From positions 7,791 through 32,334 of the forward strand of contig CAUDNR010004316.1 of NCBI GenBank assembly GCA_958430865.1: DNA of 24,544 bases, written 5' to 3'. The notes under the pieces were generated by a model. The model was not told the origin of the DNA. It worked only from the letters and a program-made list of their open reading frames with translations, and made no database searches. Each line of letters begins with the position of its first letter. Within the stretch, counting starts at the first letter, position 1. Positions 11,010-24,544 of the stretch are shown here, in pieces. Both the position numbers and the translations under genes were made by a program. This DNA is from Entrophospora sp. SA101 (lineage: Eukaryota; Glomeromycota; Glomeromycetes; Entrophosporales; Entrophosporaceae).

Positions 11010-11898
11010 CTAATTAAAAAAAAATACAATACAATTATTAAGGTGTGCAACATTCTAAGGAAAATCAAAACTAATTAATTTGTTAATCAACTGATATCAA
11101 ATACCCCAATAAATTATTATATATACATATATATAAATTCACAAACTCATATATATATAGCGCTGAAATAAAGTATTAAATTCTTGATTATTTTAATAAA
11201 TTGATAAGGTCCTCACCAGTTGTTGATTAAACGACTTAAAGAATCCCGGTTATAAAAATTAACCACTTGGATAAATGCAAATGTTTTGTCATTGTAACAA
11301 GACCCACTGCACAATTCAAATGAACTGGTGGGTATTCTACTATGTTGTGGAACTTTATACAATACCTAACCACGTGTTCATCAAAGTTAATGCCATCCAA
11401 CAATTAGTAAAATATGCTTCTTTTAAGAAAGGAAATCTTTTGACACCAAAATCTTATAAATATATCAATTAGAATTTGAGATAAAGCCATGTAACAAGAT
11501 AAAATTTTGGTCAAATTTACCTCATTAACAAGGGTTACACGTAATATATAAAAGTAAAAGGCAACGCTATCAAACTTTTTTTTTAACGCATATTTTAAAG
11601 ATAATAAGAAACTAGGTGTTCTGACAAAAATTTATTCCCGTGGCTTTTAAAATGGGCCCAGAATGATAAATATAATTGGGGTTTTGTTCCAGGATACCAG
11701 TTCATTTGAATCTCTAATGTAACACGAAATAAATGATATTCTCTCAACGCGCTCCATATAAATCATGTATATACTCGTGTTTGTTTGTTTTTTTTTTTTT
11801 TTTTAAAAAAGCAATGAAAAAAATTCCAATTAAAGATACCCAAAGCTCTCCAAAAGGTACTGTACCTTTTAAAAAAGATAAAATTAACATTCATTCAC

Positions 11899-11932
<34 letters not shown>

Positions 11933-11959
11933 AAAGATAATGACGATAAAATCGAAAAA
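11010..11959. other. Upstream region of the zinc-finger gene
   Basis: A 65-codon open frame at 11275-11472 (MQMFCHCNKTHC...) has no recognisable relative, and the opposite strand is also open there; it is not called. GTTACACGTAATAT occurs at 11534-11547 and again at 13444-13457 beyond the zinc-finger gene. CATATAAAT near 11756 could serve as a TATA element. A (TTTA)n tract ends 27 bp before the start codon. Confidence 0.4.
11903..11933. repeat. (TTTA)n microsatellite in the zinc-finger leader
   Basis: About seven TTTA units just upstream of the ATG at 11960, probably within the 5' untranslated region. Confidence 0.7.
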
Positions 11960-13225
11960 ATGCTAGACATTCGTTACAATATTAACAGCGTCGATGAGGA
12001 TGAAGATGAAGATGAGGATGAGGATGAAGATGAAGATGAAAATGAAAATGAAAATGATTATAATAATGATAGTAAAATTGGTGAAATTAGTGATGATGGT
12101 GATAAAGATCACGATATTGATGTTGGTAGTGATGAAGATGATACTGATAAAATTGAAACCAGTTGTGAGGATGACGATAAGGGTAATAAAGATGAAGATG
12201 ATAACAGCGATCAAAGTAAAAATAAATTTTTTTGCACAGTTCCAAATTGTGATAGATCATACAAGTCTATAAAAACATTTAACCGACACAGCAAAGTTCA
12301 TGGTGAAAAAGGTTTCATATGTGAATATTCAGGATGCGACAAAGCATTTTATTTTAATAACGTTTTACAACAACATATAAAACATTATCATCTTGGAATA
12401 AAAAATTTTAAGTGTGAATACCCAGGATGTGCAAAAGCATTTTCTATAAAAGGTGGCTTACTGAGTCATACAAATCGTTGTCATCTTGTGGTGGGAAATC
12501 ACAAGTGCGAATATCCAGAATGTGGACAAATATTTTCTCAAAAACAAGATCTACGAGTACACGAGAAGCGTCATCTTGGATTAAAAAATCACAAGTGTGA
12601 ATATCCAGGATGCGGAAGATCATTTTTTCGAAATGTTGAATTACAAGATCATACGAAGCGTCATCTTGGATTAAAAGATCATAAATGCGAATATCCAGGA
12701 TGTGCTTCATCATTTTGTAAAAAAAGTGAATTACTAAGACATACACAACATCATCTTAAAATAAAAAATCACAAATGTGAATATCCAGGATGTGATAAAT
12801 CATTTTGTCAAAAATGTGAATTACAAGCACACATAAGACGTCATTTTCAAATAAGAGATTTCAAATGTGATTATCCAGGATGTGATTCATCATTTATTAA
12901 AAAAATTGAATTAGCAAGACACACAAAACATCATCTTAAAATAAAAAATTTCAAGTGTGAATATCCAGGATGTGAAAAATCATTTTGTCAAAAAAGTGAT
13001 TTACAAATCCACACAAGACGTCATCTTGGAGTAAAGAATTTCAAGTGTGAATATCCAGGATGTGGAAAAGCATTTCATCGAAGAGATAGTTTGCTAGATC
13101 ACACAAAACTTCATCTTGGAATAAGAGAATTTGAATGCGATATACCTGAGTGTAACAAAAATTTTATTACCAAATCTGGACTCAAGAAGCATAAATCTAA
13201 AGTTCATAAGACTTTAGTTGAATGA
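11960..13225 (+). CDS. C2H2 zinc-finger protein, 11 TFIIIA-like fingers, acidic N-terminus
   Basis: Intronless, 421 residues; probably a nuclear nucleic-acid-binding protein. Residues 12-33 are eight Asp-Glu pairs then Asn/Glu, and acidity continues to about residue 85. Eleven fingers run from Cys92 to His416, each C-x4-C-x12-H-x3/4-H with the CEYPGC lead typical of TFIIIA/Zap1-type fingers. Fingers 1-3 and 11 are the most divergent; 4-10 are close copies. Linkers are HLGLKNH or HLKIKNH rather than TGEKP. All Cys/His ligands are present in every finger. The ATG is the first in frame after a stop; the end has four consecutive stop codons (TGA TAA TAA TGA). Target genes cannot be inferred. It might bind RNA as TFIIIA does, but finger number and linkers do not identify it as TFIIIA. 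Confidence 0.93.
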   Translation: MLDIRYNINSVDEDEDEDEDEDEDEDENENENDYNNDSKIGEISDDGDKDHDIDVGSDEDDTDKIETSCEDDDKGNKDEDDNSDQSKNKFFCTVPNCDRSYKSIKTFNRHSKVHGEKGFICEYSGCDKAFYFNNVLQQHIKHYHLGIKNFKCEYPGCAKAFSIKGGLLSHTNRCHLVVGNHKCEYPECGQIFSQKQDLRVHEKRHLGLKNHKCEYPGCGRSFFRNVELQDHTKRHLGLKDHKCEYPGCASSFCKKSELLRHTQHHLKIKNHKCEYPGCDKSFCQKCELQAHIRRHFQIRDFKCDYPGCDSSFIKKIELARHTKHHLKIKNFKCEYPGCEKSFCQKSDLQIHTRRHLGVKNFKCEYPGCGKAFHRRDSLLDHTKLHLGIREFECDIPECNKNFITKSGLKKHKSKVHKTLVE

Positions 13226-13297: not shown

Positions 13298-13746
13298 CTA
13301 AATTTTTTTTTGATCTAATTTACAATATTTTATATTATGTTACGATAATTTCATAGAAGTGCTAAGGATTTAAAAATCATTATTCATCTTATGAATTCAT
13401 CATATAATTAATTCACCGATCGTTGAGGTTTGGATTTTAAAATGTTACACGTAATATGTTTTTTTTCAATAATGGTTATACACCTATTTGATTTCTTATC
13501 ACAAAAAGAATTATGAAATTTTAATAGCTAATTATTAATACTCTGAATTATAAAAATAATTTCTTCGTGACGATCCGCCTATAAAATTAGTATATCGAGT
13601 TTTTTTAAAAAACAGAATCAATCTGGATATCAGTAAGCGTTATTAGAGAGAAAAACAAAAACTCGTTTCAATGATGTTAGAAACCATTTAAATATCATTA
13701 AACTTTGTTTTTTTTTTTTTATTTACTTGGTGAAAATTGAGACCAG

Positions 13747-14085
13747 GTGTTGGAACTTGTTATTTTTTAACGAGAAGATATGAAACACTTTGGTAAGTTA
13801 TTAGAAGATGAATATGAAAGTGAATTATCTGTTGAAGAGTTGAAGGAATGCAATATTATGAAATTACTTGGGAAACAATCATCACGGATAGAGCTAGAGA
13901 TTTTGGAGCTGGGTCACTGTTTAATCAAATTCTTCCACTGTTTTTGTCTCAATAATTGGAAGATCAGGAATTTCATTTACTAGTTAAAGCAATTGATCAT
14001 ATTTTTTATTTGGTACATCCATATATGTCCATGAAATCCTTGCGGTCATCAAACCACTTTTGATTATTTTGCAAGATGTGATTCT
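13747..14085 (+). pseudogene. SF3B1: SF3B1 (U2 snRNP splicing factor 3b subunit 1) pseudogene, 5' fragment
   Basis: Matches the start of the HEAT-repeat region of SF3B1/Hsh155, in order but in shifting frames. EDMKHFGKLLEDEYESELSV (13774 on) is followed by IMKLLGK. A deletion of about 14 codons leads into ITDRARDFGAGSLFNQILPL. After a TAA at the end of LFLSQ come LEDQEFHLLVKAIDHIF and LVHPY, then in another frame YVHEILAVIKPLLI and DYFAR. Homology stops there and resumes at 17866. The frame is open from the ATG at 13780 only to 13983. No introns are visible, so a retrocopy is possible. The real SF3B1 is about 1300 residues; only about 110 remain here. Confidence 0.85.
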
Positions 14086-14602
14086 TTTCTATTGAAATTT
14101 ATATAAAGGGTAGTAATAAAATTATAAGTAGTTTAAATAAAGTTGCAGGATTATCAACCATGATTATCACAATGAGACCAAGCATGCAATTCTTCCATTG
14201 TCCTTTCATTTTCCTAAATTACCATCCTTTTAAAATTTAAATTTAAATTATAATGATTGCATAATTAATTTTAATTATATACTTTGAATTCGATCGATTT
14301 AGTATCAACATTATTTGGTAATATGCTTGCAACATTTTCTTGCCACGTATGAAATTGTTTTAATCGTAAAAAACATTATTATTAATATTAATATTATTAT
14401 ATAAAATTGATTTAAGCTTGTTGTTCCTTTTAAATATTCTGGCAGTAATTGTTGTAAAAGTCAAAAAAGATGAAAACATTATTATTTTGATTGTCTAGTT
14501 TATTTGAATCGCCAATTCACTTTAAAATATATATGGAAATATTACATTTAATCTCTTTGCAAAAAGTCAGATGATTGAAATTTGATAATAATAATAAAAT
14601 TT

Positions 14603-14641
14603 GCCGTGTCGGACTTGTGAATTTAACGAGCTTTGACTGTA
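14603..14641. mobile_element. Solo pogo/Fot-like terminal inverted repeat
   Basis: GCCGTGTCGGACTTG ... TTTAACGAGCTTTGACTG followed by TA. Read on the other strand it is TA-CAGTCAAAGCTCGTTAAA, the common form of pogo/Fot-type ends. No opposite end was found nearby. Confidence 0.5.
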
Positions 14642-15791
14642 CCAGCCTTTTTATTATCTGAATCTTTATCCATAATTAAATGTGATGATAGACAAAATAA
14701 TAGAATCCTTTAGCACATTCAAACGTTTTAAGGAGTAGAAGGTACAGTTCTAACATCATTGATAGTTTTGTAGGTCTTTTCATAACTAAGATAATTTTAT
14801 GCTGAAATAAGATATTCTATTTGCTTAGGTGAAGAAAAGAATGAAATCAATCTTTTACAACGCAAGATAAATCTTTGGATTTCTTTATTTAGTTTAAATG
14901 CAGATAATTGTAGAATATATGTACAAGGAATTCTGAAAATATTTATTTACTTTTCCAAATTTTTATGGTGTCAAATAAAATATCACAATTTTTTCCTGTG
15001 TGAGGGTAATTTATTTGTTTGATGCCTCTTTAAATCTAAACTTTTGAAATCCCAATGCAAGTCAACAGTCAAACTTTCAGTAAAAACATTTGAATTGATT
15101 AAATTTTGTAGTTGTTGATGAGTATACTGTTGACTAGCATTGGTCACCAAAACTATTTTGATGAGGTAAAAGTCAAAACTAAAATTAAAAGTTATATGTC
15201 AAAACTAAATCAAAAGTCAAAACTAGTTTCGACTTATGGCAAAGCCTTCAGACTTTCGCACAGTGCAAAAATCCATAGTTTCGGAAACCAACTCTACTGT
15301 TGACCCAATTCGGGCAAATTTTCTATTATTGATTCACAAGGGCTTCATAATTAGGATTTAATGCAGATAGAAACTTTTTAAGTGAACCTACTTTTAATTA
15401 TTTTGGTTGATTGCGAAACTTTTGAAATAAACTCGACAAATAGTTGATTTATAAAGTTTCACTCTTTATTAGCCAAAGTTCTAGTTTTAGGAAATAAAGA
15501 AGTAATTTGTGTTTGATTTGAAGATTTTAGCTAAAATAAAAATAAATAAAGGATTTATTTAATTAACTAAAAAAAAAGTAACTTATATAAATAAAGTTTG
15601 AAAACATACTTTTTCTTCGGCATTTGGTGATGAAATTTATGCTTTATTGTTAAGTGTCGAATTCTGTTTGTTGTATATAGTGATTACTTTTATGGATCCA
15701 TAACTTAACACTACTATTATTCTTTTTCTCAAAATTTGATTGGTAGGGTTGGAGCTTACATACGAATAATGATGCTTTTGACTTTAGTCAT

Positions 15792-15891
15792 TGACGTAAC
15801 TAAAGTATTGATTAGAGGTAGTTTCTCACCAGGACATTTCGACGGCTAACTAAAATAAAAGCCTTGACGTAATTAAAAACACTTGACGTAA
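15792..15891. promoter_or_regulatory. Cluster of three TGACGTAA (CRE/bZIP-like) sites
   Basis: Exact TGACGTAA at 15792-15799, 15865-15872 and 15884-15891, each in a TTGACGTAA context, about 650-750 bp upstream of the kinase start. TGACGTAA is a known ATF/CREB-type half-variant. Binding and link to the kinase are inference. Confidence 0.4.
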
Positions 15892-16537
15892 GTAAAAACA
15901 AGTAAAACACTTGATACAAGCAAGCAATAATGATAATGATAAAATAGGATCATCAAAAGTTCCAAATTATATAAAAATGTGTGTCTCTCTCGAGGATGAA
16001 TAAAGAATTATTATATCATTGTATGTAGATTGCAATGTTGCGAGAAGAATAATTATCATGGAAAGTTTATAAATGTTATAATTTGAATTAGAAATTTCAT
16101 TTTTTTTATTTTTTTTCTGTGTATTTTTTTCAAAATAAAAATGGCTCTTCTTTTTTTATATTCTTATATTATTACATTTTGTAAAATGTAAATGTTTTTT
16201 TGAATTTTTGACTTTGAAGTTAGCTACGCATAATAGTAATACGCAATAATATTAATAATGTGCTTGTGTCTTTAGTTTCTGAGTGTGAAGAAACATAGGT
16301 TGATGGATATTGGTACTTAGAACGATCTTTACATAACACATAAGACAGGTTTTGGTACATATTTTTGTAAGTTTTAAACCTTCAAAGAATTTTTTTTATT
16401 GCTGAATCTTCAAAAATTGTTGTACGAAAAAATTGTTTGTCACACTCATTCATTCTCCGCTCCACAAAGAAAAAGTTATTCATTTATTATTATTAAAAAA
16501 ACATCACTTCGAATCTTATATTTTATATTTTTATATA

Positions 16538-18018
16538 ATGTCATATAATAAACTATTATCATCATTATCAACAGAAAAAAGGAGATTTGTATTTAAAATC
16601 TATACTGAAATACTTAATAATGCTAATGGTGATTCTAATTCTGATAAAGTAGAAAAGATTATTTTTTTTCATTAGTCAACAAAAACAAGGAGCTTTCTGA
16701 AAATGAAAAAGAATATTGTAAAGAAAGGTTTATTTATGAGTTTGAATTAAATAGTGCAATATATAAATTGGGCAAACCAAAAGAATGTAACAAGTGTAAA
16801 TTGACAAAATACTCTGATAGGTTCTGTGAAGGTTGTATTAGTTTACAATTACAGAGTCTTTTCACCACTTGGACATCTGGAAATAACATAATTGATGATT
16901 TTATTCAACAATGTCAAATGAAATCATCTCTGCCAAGCTATGTTTTAGAATGGATACCTTTTGAGCAATTTGATGATATTACAAAGTTGACAGAAGGTGG
17001 ATTTAGTTCGATTTTTACTGCTGGATGGATAAGAGGAAGTATTAATGATTACAACGAAAATACAAAGGAATTTAATTATTTTGGAGAGCAAGAAGTAGTA
17101 TTAAAAAGTTTAAATAATTCAAGTAATCCAGGAAAAGCCTTTTTTGATGAGGTTGGTAGTTGTCATTTAAACAAATAAACAATACTGTATTATATAATAA
17201 ATATTAATTGATTTTATATTTAATTACAGGCAATGAATTATTGTAAAATTAAATCAGGGTCGATTGTTAGATGTTATGGTATAACTAAATTCCCAGATAA
17301 TGGAAATTATGCAATTGTTTTAAATTATCATTCAGAAGGAAATTTAAGGGATTATTTACAAAATAATCATTTAAATCTAACATTAAAAGACAGAATTAGT
17401 ATATTTCATTATTTATGTTGGGCATTATATCAGATACATGAAAAAGATTTAATCCATTGTGATTTACATAGTGGTAATATACTTGTGCAAGTAGGTAGTT
17501 GTTATATTACAGATTTAGGATTATGTGGACCAGTTGATGACGAATCATCAAATAAAGTTTATGGAATTGTATCTTATGTTGCACCCGAGCTACTTAGAGG
17601 CAATAACACAAAGAACACCAAAGAAACAGATATTAATAGTGTTGGGATGTTAATATGGGAAATATTTGCAGGACATCCACCATTTGATGATAGAGCTCAC
17701 GATCATCGCTTGATTTTTGATATATGTGCAGAAGGCTTACGACCACCAATATTATCTGGAATGCCTGATGATTATGTACAAATGATGCAGAGATGTTGGG
17801 ATGTGGATCCATCAAAAAGACCAACTAGTGGAGAGCTTTATAATTTTGCTAACATTTTATTTATTGATGCACATGTTAGAAACACCACAGCAAAAGCATT
17901 TTCGGTTGTAGCATCAGCACACAGTATTCCTGCATTATTACCATTTTTGAAAGCAACATGTAAAAGTAAACAACATTACGAGCTAGACATACAGGAATCA
18001 AGATTGTTCAACAGATAG
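16538..18018 (+). CDS. TKL-like protein kinase fused in frame to an SF3B1-derived tail
   Basis: Exon 1 is 16538-17151, then a 78-nt phase-0 intron (GTTGGT...TACAG) and exon 2 at 17230-18018; about 467 residues if one frameshift is allowed. The start [11 protein letters not shown] and the next open frame ([16 protein letters not shown]) join only if the T8 run at 16662-16669 gains one T. The head has C84-x2-C87-x9-C97-x2-C100, then [14 protein letters not shown], a signature of Glomeromycotina kinases. Kinase core: EGGFSSIF loop (G154-155), K190 in [16 protein letters not shown] (D283, N288), DLG (D300), APE (323-325), [19 protein letters not shown] and [12 protein letters not shown]. All catalytic residues are kept, so it should be active. 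From residue 418 ([19 protein letters not shown]) the protein is SF3B1 HEAT sequence, ending in about 13 out-of-frame residues. Confidence 0.85.
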
Positions 18019-18378
18019 TTATTTTTATGGATCTGAGATTCTATCACATTTAAAAAATTTAGTTGAAGTTATTATTGCACACAGATTAGAAGTATAGTAT
18101 CATTTGACTCGGTACTTTGTACAGGTATTTGTGAACATTATGGCAAAGGACTTGCTGCATTTTTAAAAGATATGAGATTTATTACTCCGCTTGTGGATTC
18201 AGAAGATATTAATTATTATAATGATTCAGGAATTTCAATCACCACATGAAGAGATGAAAAGATGATTCTTAAGGTGACAGAATGTGCTGCAACAGATGGA
18301 GTATTGCCACATTATATAAAAGATGAGATACTCTCAGAATCTTTCAAGAAATTTTGGGTTCATAGAATGGCAAACATT
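17866..18378 (+). pseudogene. SF3B1: SF3B1 pseudogene, 3' fragment (first part serves as kinase tail)
   Basis: SF3B1 homology resumes with [16 protein letters not shown] and [15 protein letters not shown], in the kinase frame. It continues in shifting frames: [17 protein letters not shown] (17979 on), [48 protein letters not shown], then ILKVTECAATDGVLPHYIK and DEILSESFKKFWVHRM. At least four frame changes are needed, so beyond the kinase stop it cannot be translated. About 40 residues expected between the two fragments are missing at the kinase side. Confidence 0.85.
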
Positions 18379-19036
18379 ATAACTATAAATAAGATCACAT
18401 TATATAATAATAACGGAATCCCTAGGTGTCACATTATTCAAATGGATATCCCAACAAAAACTAAATTAAAGGAAGCAATCAGAATTAAAGAGATATCTAC
18501 AAGAGGTTGACATTCCTCAAGAACCACGTAGCTTTGAATATACTACCCTTAGGAGAATTTAGTGTATGGCAAGATATAGTATTAGAATGACTAGACCTTG
18601 GAGTCTGCACCAAAAACTTGAAATGTTATTGAACGAAGGAAATACAAGTCGAAGTTTAAATACTACCACGTATTGTGTGAAATGATTCGCGAAAACCCAA
18701 AGACCGTCAAAATACTTGAGAAAATGGAGAATATTATTAAGTAGCAACAAGGAGTTGTATCTTGTTCAAAGTAGTTGATGTTGCTTACTTGTCCGTAGTA
18801 AGGTAACTACCACTAATTTACTGTCTCGGAATTCAAAGAATTGTAGCAAAAGTTAGACTAATTTGGTTCCGAAATATGATCCTGCAGGAGCTTAATGCTG
18901 GAGAGAACCTTCTGTTACCAGGGTAACAACACAATCATCATCATCACCACCACCACTTAGTATTGGTTTAGATTACATGGTGTCTTCACTACCAATATCA
19001 ACTTTATCATCTTCTTCAACTTCACCATCAGGATGA
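18379..19036 (+). pseudogene. Eroded coding sequence of uncertain origin
   Basis: Directly downstream of recognisable SF3B1. Protein-like stretches occur in different frames: NKITLYNNNGIPRCHIIQMD, VDIPQEPRSFEYTTL, KYYHVLCEMIRENPKTVKIL (about 18657-18740), and a Ser/Pro-rich end at 18908-19036 (PSVTRVTTQSSSSPPP ... STSPSG, TGA). The first could still be SF3B1, but later parts do not match what I remember of it. They may be remnants of a second gene. No start and no continuous frame. Confidence 0.4.
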
Positions 19037-19379
19037 ACCCACATGACATATAATTAATTATCATTTACAATTATTTATTATTTTTATTTATTTATTTCAT
19101 TATTTCATTTATTAATTTCTTATACTTATTTGATAGTTGGTTATAATAAATATGTATTGATGTTATAATGTTATTTAACGTTAGATTATTAGTCACTATC
19201 ATATTAGATGCTGATTATATAATTATATATAATAGGATAAAACAAAATCTGTCACTAAATTAACTACATATTCACATTTTAAAAATTAACTTTGATCTAA
19301 AGATCTAAAATTATTCTTTGGTTTCGACCATCTGAATAAACAAATATTCATATCAAATCACAAACCCAAAACTATTCGC

Positions 19380-19705
19380 TGGTCTACTGCCATTTCATCT
19401 GATTCTGCATAATTAAAAATACATTATCATCTATTACCACATCAATACCCACCTGATAACAATATTTATAATAATAAAATCATTTTGTTAATATGTATGT
19501 CAATAAAAAAATACATTTTCCATTTTTACATGATTGATAGTATATTAGCATACATGCAATTTTTATTTTTTCGATACTCTACGCCACACTGAATACAAAC
19601 ACATACATTGTTAAAGAATATAAAATCTGATGTAGGCAAAAATGTATTCTTTACATCATCGTGTGTTAATAATCAATTTTGGTAGTAGTGGTAATGATTC
19701 ATTTA
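19380..19705 (-). pseudogene. Possible eroded exons, unknown protein
   Basis: On the minus strand 19705-19526 reads NESLPLLPK, a frame change, then DDVKNTFLPTSDFIFFNN, VCVCIQCGVEYRKNKN and CMYANILSIM before a TAA. The C-x-C-x2-C cluster suggests a small zinc site. After an AG near 19460 a second piece, VGIDVVIDDNVFLIMQNQMK, ends in TAG. The pieces look coding but no family is recognised, and no start or complete splice pattern is seen. It may belong to a transposon or to gene D. Confidence 0.3.
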
Positions 19706-19772
19706 CTTTACTGAAATGAAAAAAATTTTCAGATATTAGCAACATTACATCGTAATACATGCTTTCAACATA

Positions 19773-21876
19773 CTATGCTAACGGATTTGTGGTTGTTCTT
19801 GTAGATTCTGCTATATTTGAGATTCCCTTTGGCTTTGTCGTCACCACCTTTCCGAGGACAAAATTTTCTTTTTTTGCTCTTTCCTTTATAAGCTTGAAAT
19901 GAGAAACTGTAGAACGCAACAATTTCTGCAGGTCATAATGAAATGAAAATTTTTTTGTATCATTCTCGATTTTAGAACCTGCACGTTCGCAAAGGGAAAA
20001 TTCTCGACCGTACGGCAAATCTTTTCCTATATCATGTTTCTGTAGGCATCTGTTAGTAATCAAAAAAAAAAAAAATATTGATAACAACAATCAAAAGCAC
20101 CATAAATCTAACCACACCGTAAATATCCAGTCTAAATGAAATCCCTCTGCATCAAGATTGGCAAATTTACTGGTCAATTGAGAACTGATGGACTTTGGAC
20201 TGGTCCATTGCCATTAATAAATATTAAATATGGTTAAAGTGTTACACTAATGGACTCAATGGATCATCAATAGACCACTAATGGACCACGCATTTGCCAA
20301 CCTTGCTCTGCATTATCTGGGGCATCTGTTGCTTCACACCATTGATCTCGAGATGACCTAGACACCATTTCTCCACTTATTTGAGAAATAATTAGTATTA
20401 TTATCAACAATGAACAGTACATAAGAATGATAATAGAACCTACAAGTGGCTACCAAGGATGTCATCAAAACATGAAAATATGTGTCTTTTGATGAAAATA
20501 TCAATATCTCTTTCTGTGTTTTTTCGCTGGGGAATTCCCTTTTGCTAACATTTCACATCCGATTGCAAAGAAATGTGGTATTAGACGTTCAAATGATAAT
20601 GTGTATGCAAAATAACAAAATGCCAAGCTAGCATTATCAAATAAAATAAACTTACGTATAACAAGCCAATTCTAAAATGTGACTCACATCTTTATCCAGA
20701 TAGTCTATTTCTTCAATAAAAGCAAATGGTATTGTATTATTATTTGGATTCTCATCGCAAATAAATCGGGTTCTAGGTTCGGCTCCTCGGTATTCTTTAT
20801 GATTTTCCGAAGTTCAAGAATGGCTCCATGTATTCCTTTAGGCTTCACTATTTCTCCAATAATACAGATCTGACCACTGTCCAGCTAGGAACAAAAAGTG
20901 CATGTTAATTAAAATTATCATATAAAACCAAACTCCTTAATTTCAATACTTACCCTTGAAAGAGATTGCAGACATCTTTCAGCAATAGGCTCTAGCACTG
21001 TCCAGTCATTCTTGGGATGAACAATATTAAGAGCAGTTGAAAACGTGGTTTGTAGATCTAAAATTCTTCTTTAGACAAGAATTCTTGCGCGATTTTTGGG
21101 TCTGACACATCCACAATCCGTCACCAGATTGGTCTAAATAATGAAATCGGTCAGAATTTGGCCACCATCAAAGACAAAAGGATCCAGTATTGATCAAGCC
21201 CTTACTCTTTTGTTGATTTAAATCTCTCGGATGGGTCAGTTTGTGAAATCAATAATTTATGTTGTTCCATCATTTTTTGCAACCAGCTTGGAACTGGTGT
21301 GTCAAGTTCCCAATCTGTTGAAAGTTCCATATGTCGATTTTGGGAACACTGGCAATTTCATTTCTATAAGCCCACTCAAGTCAACATATTCATCAAATGA
21401 AACATTAAACCATTTGGCCTATATTGTATTAAAAAAAAAAGCATGATATCAATATGAAGCAATGAAAAATAAAATTAATACTTACTTTCTTGTTTTGATC
21501 TGACGTGAAAAATTAGAAATTTTATCATGATCTTGAGAATCTTCTACATGTGACTAGATATTGAGAAGGAAAGTAAATTTACTATGCAAAATATAAATGT
21601 AATACCGATTTTAATTAATATTTACAAGAACTCGCTTCTTAGAGCACTGAATTGAGTCTGTTACAAATGATTCTAGCTTGTCAGATAAGAATGTTCTTAC
21701 AGTTTTGAAAATCTTTGATTGAATCATCCATAACGTCATTGATGTAACCTAACTATTTACAAATATATCAGATCAGATCCTTTGCGTATATAAAAAATTG
21801 CAAAACACAATTTACAAACCAAACCTTTTCAATATTGTTTTCTCTTTCCAGAAGTTTGGGAGGTTTTCTCTCTCAT
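19773..21876 (-). pseudogene. Gene D: lineage-specific multi-exon gene, multiply disabled
   Basis: Exons: 21876-21825 (tentative start MREKTSQTSGKRKQY), 21752-21626, 21553-21486, 21418-21206, 21133-20954, 20884-20656, 20627-20444, 20375-20118 and 20039-19773. Introns are 67-84 nt. Key stretches: TFLSDKLESFVTDSIQCSKK, FNVSFDEYVDLSGLIEMKL, VPSWLQKMMEQHKLLISQTD, NDWTVLEPIAERCLQSLSR, ICIIGEIVKPKGIHGAILEL, IPFAFIEEIDYLDKDVSHIL and DLPYGREFSLCERAGSKIEN. It resembles a Rhizophagus-only multigene family; function unknown. Lesions: TGA at 21829-21831 and 21121-21123, frame changes in at least five exons, and a 153-bp transposon in the penultimate exon. The first two exon joins are uncertain in phase. 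The last exon is open to a TAG. Confidence 0.65.
20153..20305. mobile_element. 153-bp hAT-like MITE inside the penultimate exon of gene D
   Basis: Ends CAAGATTGGCAAAT and ATTTGCCAACCTTG (14 bp, one mismatch), flanked by exact 8-bp repeats CTCTGCAT at 20145-20152 and 20306-20313. The inside repeats ATGGAC/GGTCCAT words. Removing the element and one CTCTGCAT rejoins the exon as DNAEGFHLDWIFT in frame. Confidence 0.88.
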
Positions 21877-23462
21877 TCGTTAAAAAGAGATGAATATTAG
21901 TATAAGAACTGGATATTACTATAAGTTCAAATAAACATTTTTTTATTATTTTATGCGATTGAGATGGACCATAACATGGGGCATGGCCTAATAACCAGTT
22001 GGGGCATATTCATCGGTTGTGTTATGGCAACTACCAAGTAGTGTATTCAAGGGCGCCCGAGGGATGGCATAGATCACTATCACTAGCTAGGGCGTGGTGG
22101 CTAGCTACTCGGGGGTTGTCAATATGTCACAACATGTCCTAAGACCGGAACATACTCTAGCTCTTGAACCCACACAATCTGCAATCATATTAAATATACT
22201 TAACTTCAAAACTCAGGAGACATGATTAAGCTCGCTCTTCAGAAAACATGTTTAAAACTCTCTTGTATACTCTATGCTCCATTCCTCTATTGTACGTAAA
22301 GCTTACAGTTTCCTCTCTATATTGAAGAAATTTTAGTAATGACCAGGTCAAATTATTCTCAAAGAACTATATAACAATATTTGTGAAATATTCATATTTG
22401 ATTGTGTTGTGTTGAGGAAGTCGTGTTCGTGTTACATTAAAGCAGCCAATAATAATAATTAATAATTGTGTAGAAAAATTCGTGCAACAAAGTACAGTAT
22501 AGCATATGGGCTGAAATTGGACATTAACATATAAATTTACTCCGTTAATCCGTAGCCTTTCATCTTTTAATCCATAGGTAGACCCTGTTAGACCGAAATT
22601 TTTTTTTTTGAAACCATTCCTTCCTTCTATTTAAATTACACGATAATCCGATCTTCAGTTTTTGAAGTACTCCGTTAATCCGAAGAAAAGTGGCTGCATA
22701 AATGCCTTTGGTTTGACTATGTATATATTTGAAATGAATTATTGATATATCCAATCAACAATGTATTATGATAATATTCTTTAGTTTGTTACATTCTCAC
22801 TGCATATTAATATGCTCGTTCTTGTTGGTTGTGGCAAACTATATATTATTTAATGAAATTCAATAATGAATTTGGTAGATACAATGGGAAGCGGGAGGTT
22901 AGTCCTTCCTATCAGTTATATTAAACGATAAACATGTATTTCTGGCTTTTCCCTTATGATAATAACCTTTAACACCCAAACTTTTAAGTGAAATATTGAA
23001 GATAATTTGTAAATTACTATATTCTTGTATTCTAATTTATTTAAATAAAATTAATAAATAAATAAATAGAAATTAACTTTAGCTACAAAGAACATTAATT
23101 ACAGCAAACAAAAGTCTTAGAACCAAGAAATGAGCTTTGATGGTATTGAACTAATAAATATGATATAATTGCTTTATATAGTTAATATCCAACTTTTCTT
23201 TCTAATATTCTAAAGCCCTGATAGATAGATAGATATTAATCTTTTCTATTTTTTTCTTGCTACTTTTTTCTTCTCTTGTACCCATCTCTAGCATACACAC
23301 ACATCATTCTTTCTTGCCCCATTCTGATTTGTAAAATTATGAGACTTGTGATTTATTTAATTTTGATGAAATAAGTTTATATGTCCGGTTGAAAAAAAAC
23401 ACTAAAAAAAAAAATAAATAAATAGGTAATCAGTCAATTAGTTAATCAATCAATAGTATTTT
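21877..23462. other. Gene-free region with a GC-rich island and pogo-like repeats
   Basis: 21960-22200 is markedly GC-richer (GGGCGCCCGAGGG, TAGGGCGTGGTGGCTAGC). With CTATATAAC at 22369 it has the look of a degraded LTR, but no matching partner or target duplication was found. ACTCCGTTAATCCG occurs twice as a direct repeat at 22539-22552 and 22669-22682, with GATAATCCG between. Such words are common in pogo/Fot-type ends. 22800-23460 holds only AT-rich sequence and simple repeats (GATA at 23220-23235). Confidence 0.4.
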
Positions 23463-23873
23463 TTATATGTGTGTATATGTATATATACCAGAATCTTTAG
23501 AAGAAATTACTAATTTTTTTGTAATTTTTCGACAAATTAGAAGCCAAATTGATACACTAACAGCCCCTAAAATTTAATTTTTTGATAATATATAAATATA
23601 AATATAAATATAAATGTATGTATGAATGTATTTGAAAATTAAACAAACGAACGTAAAAAATCAACAATAAAATCTTCAAAAATCAAAAACCTGATGGAGA
23701 AAAGGGCAATGAAAAGATCCAACTAACTGGACTGAACCAATTTTTTGGTAAAAAATAAACAGGTGTAGTTCTATACCATAATATCATAATTATTTGAATT
23801 CCATTAATTGATCCCCACAAAATAGTTTGAAATTTTAGTACAAATGATGTCCTCATATATCCTAACGAAGTTG

Positions 23874-23915
<42 letters not shown>

Positions 23916-24487
23916 ATTATTATTATTATTATTATTAAAAAATAAAAATTAATATATTAATTAAATTTTTTTACACCCCCAACTTAATTATTAAATATAT
24001 ATATATATTTACAAATCTTTTCTAATTCATTCATCTTGCTATCCAATTTTCTTCTTAACTTGGCCCATTTAGCAAATTGATCCTTTATCAATAACGAAGC
24101 AAAAGTAAATCATATGGATTTATAACAATCTCTTTCTGATTCCAATTCGCCTCCTCCTCGCATAAATACCTGTGAACTTGTTCTTGTCAATTCTTGTTTT
24201 ACTTGTAAAATATCTTTTTTAAGCATCCTTTGTTTTTTTATAGTTTCCTTTTGAAATACACTTAAATATATGTTATATGCCTTATTTCAAAAATACATAT
24301 AACGTTGTTTTCAAATGTTAAAAAAAAATTGCATATTGGAAGGCTAATTATTAAGTTAATTGATTAGTTAAATGAATAAATACAAATATTAACAAGTTCT
24401 TACCATGTTCGCTATTTGTGAGTATCCATACCAATTAATCAATTCTATAATAATCACTATCATTAAAATAATTATTGCTAAAGCCAT
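23463..24487 (-). CDS. GET1: GET1/WRB, receptor subunit for tail-anchored protein insertion
   Basis: ER-membrane receptor that, with GET2, docks the GET3 ATPase and inserts tail-anchored proteins. Five exons: 24487-24404, 24280-24170, 24082-24013, 23873-23691 and 23566-23463. Phases fit throughout, giving 183 residues with a TAA stop. Residues 2-17 form a first membrane segment (ALAIIILMIVIIIELI). A cytosolic coiled coil follows (KKDILQVKQELTRTSSQ, then DQFAKWAKLRRKLDSKMNEL); the FAKWAKLRRK box is the family hallmark. The membrane half reads FQTILWGSINGIQIIMILWY, TPVYFLPKNWFSPVSWIF and AVSVSIWLLICRKI, as in other GET1 proteins. Length is near human WRB (174). Intron 3 carries a TA/TTA microsatellite. 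No lesion seen. The ATG follows a CAA/TAA-rich leader that reaches the window edge. Confidence 0.93.
23875..23936. repeat. (TA)n-(TTA)n microsatellite in GET1 intron 3
   Basis: About 18 TA units followed by about 8 TTA units. It abuts the acceptor of exon 4: on the minus strand the intron ends ...TATATAG. Confidence 0.85.
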
Positions 24488-24544
24488 TATTATTGTTGTT
24501 GTTGTTAATATTGTTATCAGTATTTGTTTTATCGATTAAGTTAC

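Follow-up and report, generated by a model that had tools for sequence, protein, structure and literature searches.

An in-frame join of a kinase exon to an SF3B1-derived fragment in Entrophospora sp. SA101: apparently a private accident or an artefact of assembly, not a new protein

An expansion of tyrosine kinase-like (TKL) genes is reported for Rhizophagus irregularis (PMC4219462). The kinase gene studied here is like the expanded TKL genes of arbuscular mycorrhizal fungi in its kinase domain, in one intron at the same place and in its many close paralogues, but differs from them in a frameshifted 5' end and in lacking the SRILDEEIA tail. It is located in a window of 24,544 nucleotides (the whole stretch of DNA that was analysed, C1810:7791-32334) from an assembly of 101 Mb in 2123 contigs, and the kinase and SF3B1 parts of the locus described below lie on the + strand. 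We take this kinase to be a TKL, a label given by resemblance. Its open frame runs into a tail that, together with degenerate pieces flanking it, matches SF3B1, a subunit of the U2 snRNP and a HEAT-repeat protein; unlike SF3B1, the window holds fragments in several frames with stops. Fusion ORFs that arise by deletion between neighbouring genes are a known kind, and so are genes nested in another gene. The locus resembles deletion-made fusion ORFs in that the end of one gene and a spacer are removed and two coding stretches are joined in frame, whereas it departs from them in that the second partner is already degenerate and the event is present in one contig only. Neither a kinase-SF3B1 fusion nor an SF3B1 pseudogene in these fungi is described in the titles or abstract openings of the papers that our literature searches listed.

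The frame at 17224-18018 comprises 264 codons without a stop, and its first ~205 residues match the kinase-domain profile PF07714 at 3e-33, over positions 56-255 of its 258. The exon-2 part alone reaches 115.7 bits for PF07714 against a cut-off of 23.1 and 110.4 bits for PF00069 (1.3e-31) against a cut-off of 31.7. Exon 1 (16538-17151, by homology) and exon 2 (17230-18018) are separated by a 78-nt GT-AG intron inside the kinase domain (17152-17229, by paralogue mapping). The kinase portion of exon 2, assigned by Pfam, extends from 17230 to 17851; it is identical to the copies on C1237 and C1580b and has one difference (17574) to that on C1806. From there the exon stays open into 33 clear SF3B1 residues, as a first-pass annotation of this DNA had claimed. 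The same annotation had the gene start at 16538, the family's usual ATG, and this start could not be upheld: spliced over the intron, the frame ends after 45 codons (16538-16675, from a 20-locus alignment and splicing of the window), because exon 1 carries a net 2-base frameshift near 16650 when compared with most aligned paralogues. An intact frame from the family's ATG is thus missing from the window. The earliest ATG in the kinase frame is at 16918, with a possible product of 340 residues.

Broken copies are common in the kinase sample and therefore a broken start does not set the window apart. Of 1104 first-look candidates in the assembly, 40 were scored and gave 47 kinase matches, and 20 kinase loci, the window among them, were excised for alignment; some of these are near duplicates of one another. 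By one procedure throughout, frames of at least 477 aa were found in 10 of the 20 loci, the window being counted in the 20, and the remaining loci are broken somewhere, with the exception of L035, whose start is without alignment and whose frame was left unjudged as to intactness. The fused frame is really present in the contig, and whether it counts as a gene is very doubtful. Tails were readable in 18 loci including the window. SRILDEEIA is present in 16 of the 17 paralogue tails (window excluded) and an SF3B1 ending in none of these 17, which bears out the earlier statement that members of the family end otherwise; the window does not carry the conserved C-terminal tail with this motif. A protein search with the whole frame returned 351 proteins, and tails were judged among the 120 of them that were listed. 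At least 30 residues past the kinase's last motif, and hence a judgeable tail, were found in 57 of these 120 relatives, the other 63 being too short or without that motif; an SRILDEEI-like motif occurs in 21 of the 57, SF3B1-like words in none of them. The paralogues that could be mapped have a single intron at the same position. We also noted that the kinases of the window, C1237, C1580b and C1806 are nearly identical in their 3' parts and over more than 6.6 kb downstream and that their 5' parts differ. The onset of identity lies inside exon 1, at ~16825-16847 for the window, C1237 and C1580b and at 17095 for C1806.

The fused tail occupies 17852-18018, with a clear SF3B1 frame from ~17872 to 17970 and out-of-frame residues from there to the stop. 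A 33-residue stretch of this tail matches chains of Splicing factor 3B subunit 1 (6en4_C, residues 171-203, E 1.2e-10; 5ife_C, residues 623-655, E 2e-10), a likeness that, judged by sequence comparison, is far beyond chance. The SF3B1 frame departs by a 1-base shift after ~17970 and the stop is a TAG at 18016-18018; by eye, a like shift is present at that place in an SF3B1 copy on C1334 and absent there in the copy on C1703. Later pieces are in other frames with stops between them, so that there is no continuous open HEAT array. The earlier label of a HEAT segment is too strong for ~33 residues; presumably the fused frame spans at most about one HEAT unit. When the tail was searched against ~5.8 billion proteins, 6 candidates led to 3 proteins, which are SF3B1-like by sequence and include no kinase. 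A Funneliformis caledonium SF3B1 fragment picked up by the tail search is 70% identical over 44 aligned residues. This fragment (P0001) also served as the SF3B1 query against the assembly, where it gave 43 matches, in degenerate-looking copies on C1334 (two), C1038, C1479, C1703, C1580, C1237, C1806 and C1810. A clearly intact SF3B1 was not seen among these 43 matches, which is no proof of its absence in an assembly that has stretches withheld as N and may be incomplete.

At 17851-17852 the kinase is joined to the SF3B1 piece as ...AATTTTGCT -> AACATTTTATTTATTG, with one base common to both sides. By alignment this is a deletion junction with one-base microhomology, at which 730 bp of four other copies are absent. 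To the left as well as to the right of the junction, the window matches these four places (C1237, C1806, C1580a and C1580b), which carry the 730 bp, identical across them, between kinase and SF3B1 piece. Downstream, an aligned block of 6694 bases (17851-24544) has one difference (24530) to each of the four. Upstream, the identity to the window extends over 1027 bases in C1580b, 1005 in C1237, 431 in C1580a and 277 in C1806; past its 431 identical bases C1580a breaks off inside the kinase, and C1806 has one difference to the window at 17574 and is then identical to 17095. First in the 730 bp comes the kinase end that the window lacks, RNKRNEIIKNNNDD...SRILDEEIAKSRSLKIHTSNSSLNNLDCNSFL with its stop codon, an open tail like those of the paralogues; the 3' flank of the kinase follows, and then ~45 bases from an SF3B1 intron. 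Two placements are possible, in which the missing stretch begins with AGAAAT or GAAAT and ends with AAGTA or AGTAA, and in neither of them does it have GT...AG ends. The 31-mer that spans the junction occurs a single time in the assembly, and we found the junction in no other copy of this assembly and no kinase among the protein-database matches to the tail.

The kinase is flanked on both sides by SF3B1. Upstream, a 5' piece of a degenerate SF3B1 copy with internal stops covers 13742-14180 (P0001 residues ~153-306; tblastn with P0001, blastn to C1334 and C1703, edge by alignment) and ends near an exon edge that precedes an intron. The upstream tblastn matches of P0001 are at 13756-13875 (residues 153-192) and 13881-14186 (residues 208-306), with stops present, and its match at the tail covers residues 305-348. 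Downstream, a 3' piece of the degenerate copy covers 17852-18372 by homology (5ife_C ~623-824), with frame changes and small losses. The 5' piece (residues to ~306) and the 3' piece (from ~305) are on one strand and in order. On C1334 and C1703 these exons of SF3B1 lie near each other, parted by an intron between residues ~304 and 305, so that the two pieces around the kinase are consecutive ones. The compared SF3B1 copies are also degenerate, so that the exon border is accurate to a few bases only.

What lies between the two pieces (14187-17851) would be the remnant of an inserted kinase-bearing segment of ~4.35 kb in its undeleted form, according to C1498 homology and the undeleted copies. 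Both ends of the insert were set by comparison with a donor-like kinase locus on C1498 (L036, L052). Homology to C1498 begins at window 14187, with 92% over 526 aligned bases and then 88% over 2703, and ~500 bases of the window's flank are absent from C1498. In the undeleted copies this homology (82%) runs to ~base 685 of the 730 and halts at ...CTTCAATTTCAGC; of the bases that follow, 39 of 41 match the SF3B1 intron of C1703. By eye, ~15 bases of the SF3B1 exon/intron edge were lost at the insertion site, and neither a target-site duplication nor terminal repeats were seen at the insert ends in the alignments. The undeleted order, as reconstructed from these homologies, is SF3B1 exon, kinase insert, intron remnant and SF3B1 exon, and it follows from this reconstruction that the form in the window would derive from it by a loss that took the kinase end together with the border of the insert and what was left of the intron. 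The left end of the insert is also present in three 100% copies on C1580 and its right end in the four undeleted copies. In C1237, C1580b and C1806 the 5' flanks are different and the SF3B1 5' piece is absent; on C1580, none of the three copies of the upstream part of the window extends as far as the SF3B1 3' piece. Because only C1810, the contig of the window, joins the 5' and 3' pieces across the kinase, the nested order rests on the window together with insert ends found in separate copies.

How far does this agree with a gene that took its tail and stop codon from a splicing-factor pseudogene, as was originally proposed? The origin of the tail in a degenerate SF3B1 copy stands. An established tail-capturing gene is not supported: the junction is found in one contig, four copies keep their own tail, stop and 3' flank, and the usual start is frameshifted. 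That an expressed kinase gene with a captured HEAT segment works here as a new chimera is, accordingly, very improbable. Although the frame is open through the junction, the kinase domain is above the Pfam cut-offs and translation from the in-frame ATG at 16918 would yield the 340 residues, the SF3B1 frame is gone after ~33 residues behind that broken family start, the chimera junction is confined to one contig with its 31-mer unique in the assembly, and kinases are missing from the 3 database matches to the tail. Even harder to credit is a join that reflects, in place of a deletion, either an intron that went unrecognised or a retro copy made from mRNA. On their right side the missing 730 bp do end near an SF3B1 exon start, as would fit such a join, but the lack of GT...AG ends in either placement speaks against it, and so does the kinase's own 78-nt intron, which is retained 622 bp upstream of the junction.

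A more serious rival, to which we give slightly less than an even chance, is that the 730-bp gap is a chimeric join from assembly or from DNA amplification in an unresolved repeat; it overlaps with the last step of the explanation that we prefer. Five places have 6.7 to >11 kb in common at 99.98-100% identity, and their 5' sides are different. Of the C1580 copies of the window's upstream part, two break off at window-equivalent 16848, only a few bases from the point at which the window turns identical to the C1237 kinase; one of them runs into exactly 10 N and the other into a long stretch of N (a third diverges at 16390). C1580 further has an inverted join with ~7 bp overlap, and the window's own contig terminates inside the repeat, with its one difference 14 bp from that end. 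Such patterns occur when an assembler takes several paths through one repeat, or by ectopic recombination between kinase paralogues. However, the microhomology at the junction is one base and therefore a simple repeat-driven misjoin fails as an explanation; moreover, C1810 keeps both SF3B1 pieces in the order to be expected, and misjoining at random through the kinase would have no bias towards that order. For single nuclei of such a fungus, one assembly workflow is reported to give more duplicated genes (PMC6987183), and the workflow behind the present assembly may differ. On balance, we consider the chances of a true deletion allele and of an assembly or amplification artefact to be about even.

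The best explanation, and in our view a quite probable one, is an accidental fusion by deletion within a nested, decaying locus. The ends set by C1498, the undeleted copies and the upstream SF3B1 piece argue for an insertion of ~4.35 kb that carried a kinase, followed by a deletion that produced the fusion. In this reading a genomic SF3B1 copy with introns, degenerate today, was present at the site, and into its exon/intron edge a C1498-like segment of ~4.35 kb, an intron-containing kinase gene with ~2.3 kb of upstream flank, was inserted at the cost of ~15 bases of the target and with no target-site duplication visible; homology shows both steps. The stretch is found in several near-identical versions in the assembly. 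In the window's version the 730 bp that begin just behind the kinase's LYNFA and reach roughly to where the next exon of SF3B1 starts would have gone, which is seen as a sequence difference in the contig, and the join with its one-base overlap would place the kinase in frame with ~33 SF3B1 residues. The deletion model leaves unexplained why the deletion ends close to the SF3B1 exon start. The product, if there is any, would probably be a kinase minus its conserved C-terminal tail and with a short functionless end. The fusion seems to be no new protein but a private accident or an artefact of the assembly.

The case shows that a gene-fusion call from one contig can stem from nested duplication and deletion, and that near-identical copies in the same assembly expose this. 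Retroposition of the kinase was ruled out because its 78-nt intron and ~2.3 kb of upstream flank are retained. A kinase duplication of 4.35 kb, well bounded within an SF3B1 copy and with no visible target-site duplication, suggests that the family may spread in this way; judging from this one case, it might be possible that it does so as DNA segments with upstream flank and intron and not by retroposition. Should the deletion prove real and expressed, it would offer a minor example of a signalling protein with a new C-terminus. We see a slim prospect that it is a real nuclear allele transcribed from a downstream start, giving a kinase that lacks its tail and ends in SF3B1-derived sequence, and that, in addition, the kinase family gains new C-termini by repeatedly inserting into other genes and undergoing deletion within them.

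Some further features were noted around the locus and on C1580 (L013-L019). The latter contig has three copies of the window stretch from ~11.4 or 12.0 kb to 16.4 or 16.8 kb. It also carries the downstream block twice, inverted each time, and includes both a gap of 10 N and an inverted join. Past the SF3B1 piece, short frames at 18440-18930 resemble remnants of another gene; the five pieces examined after 18440 gave no Pfam match above cut-off, and one of them, 18470-18559, gave no PDB match. Just upstream of the 5' SF3B1 piece, at 11888-13225, a frame is open over 445 codons; its start is acidic, and it encodes many zinc fingers of the C2H2 type (PF00096, 2.4e-33).
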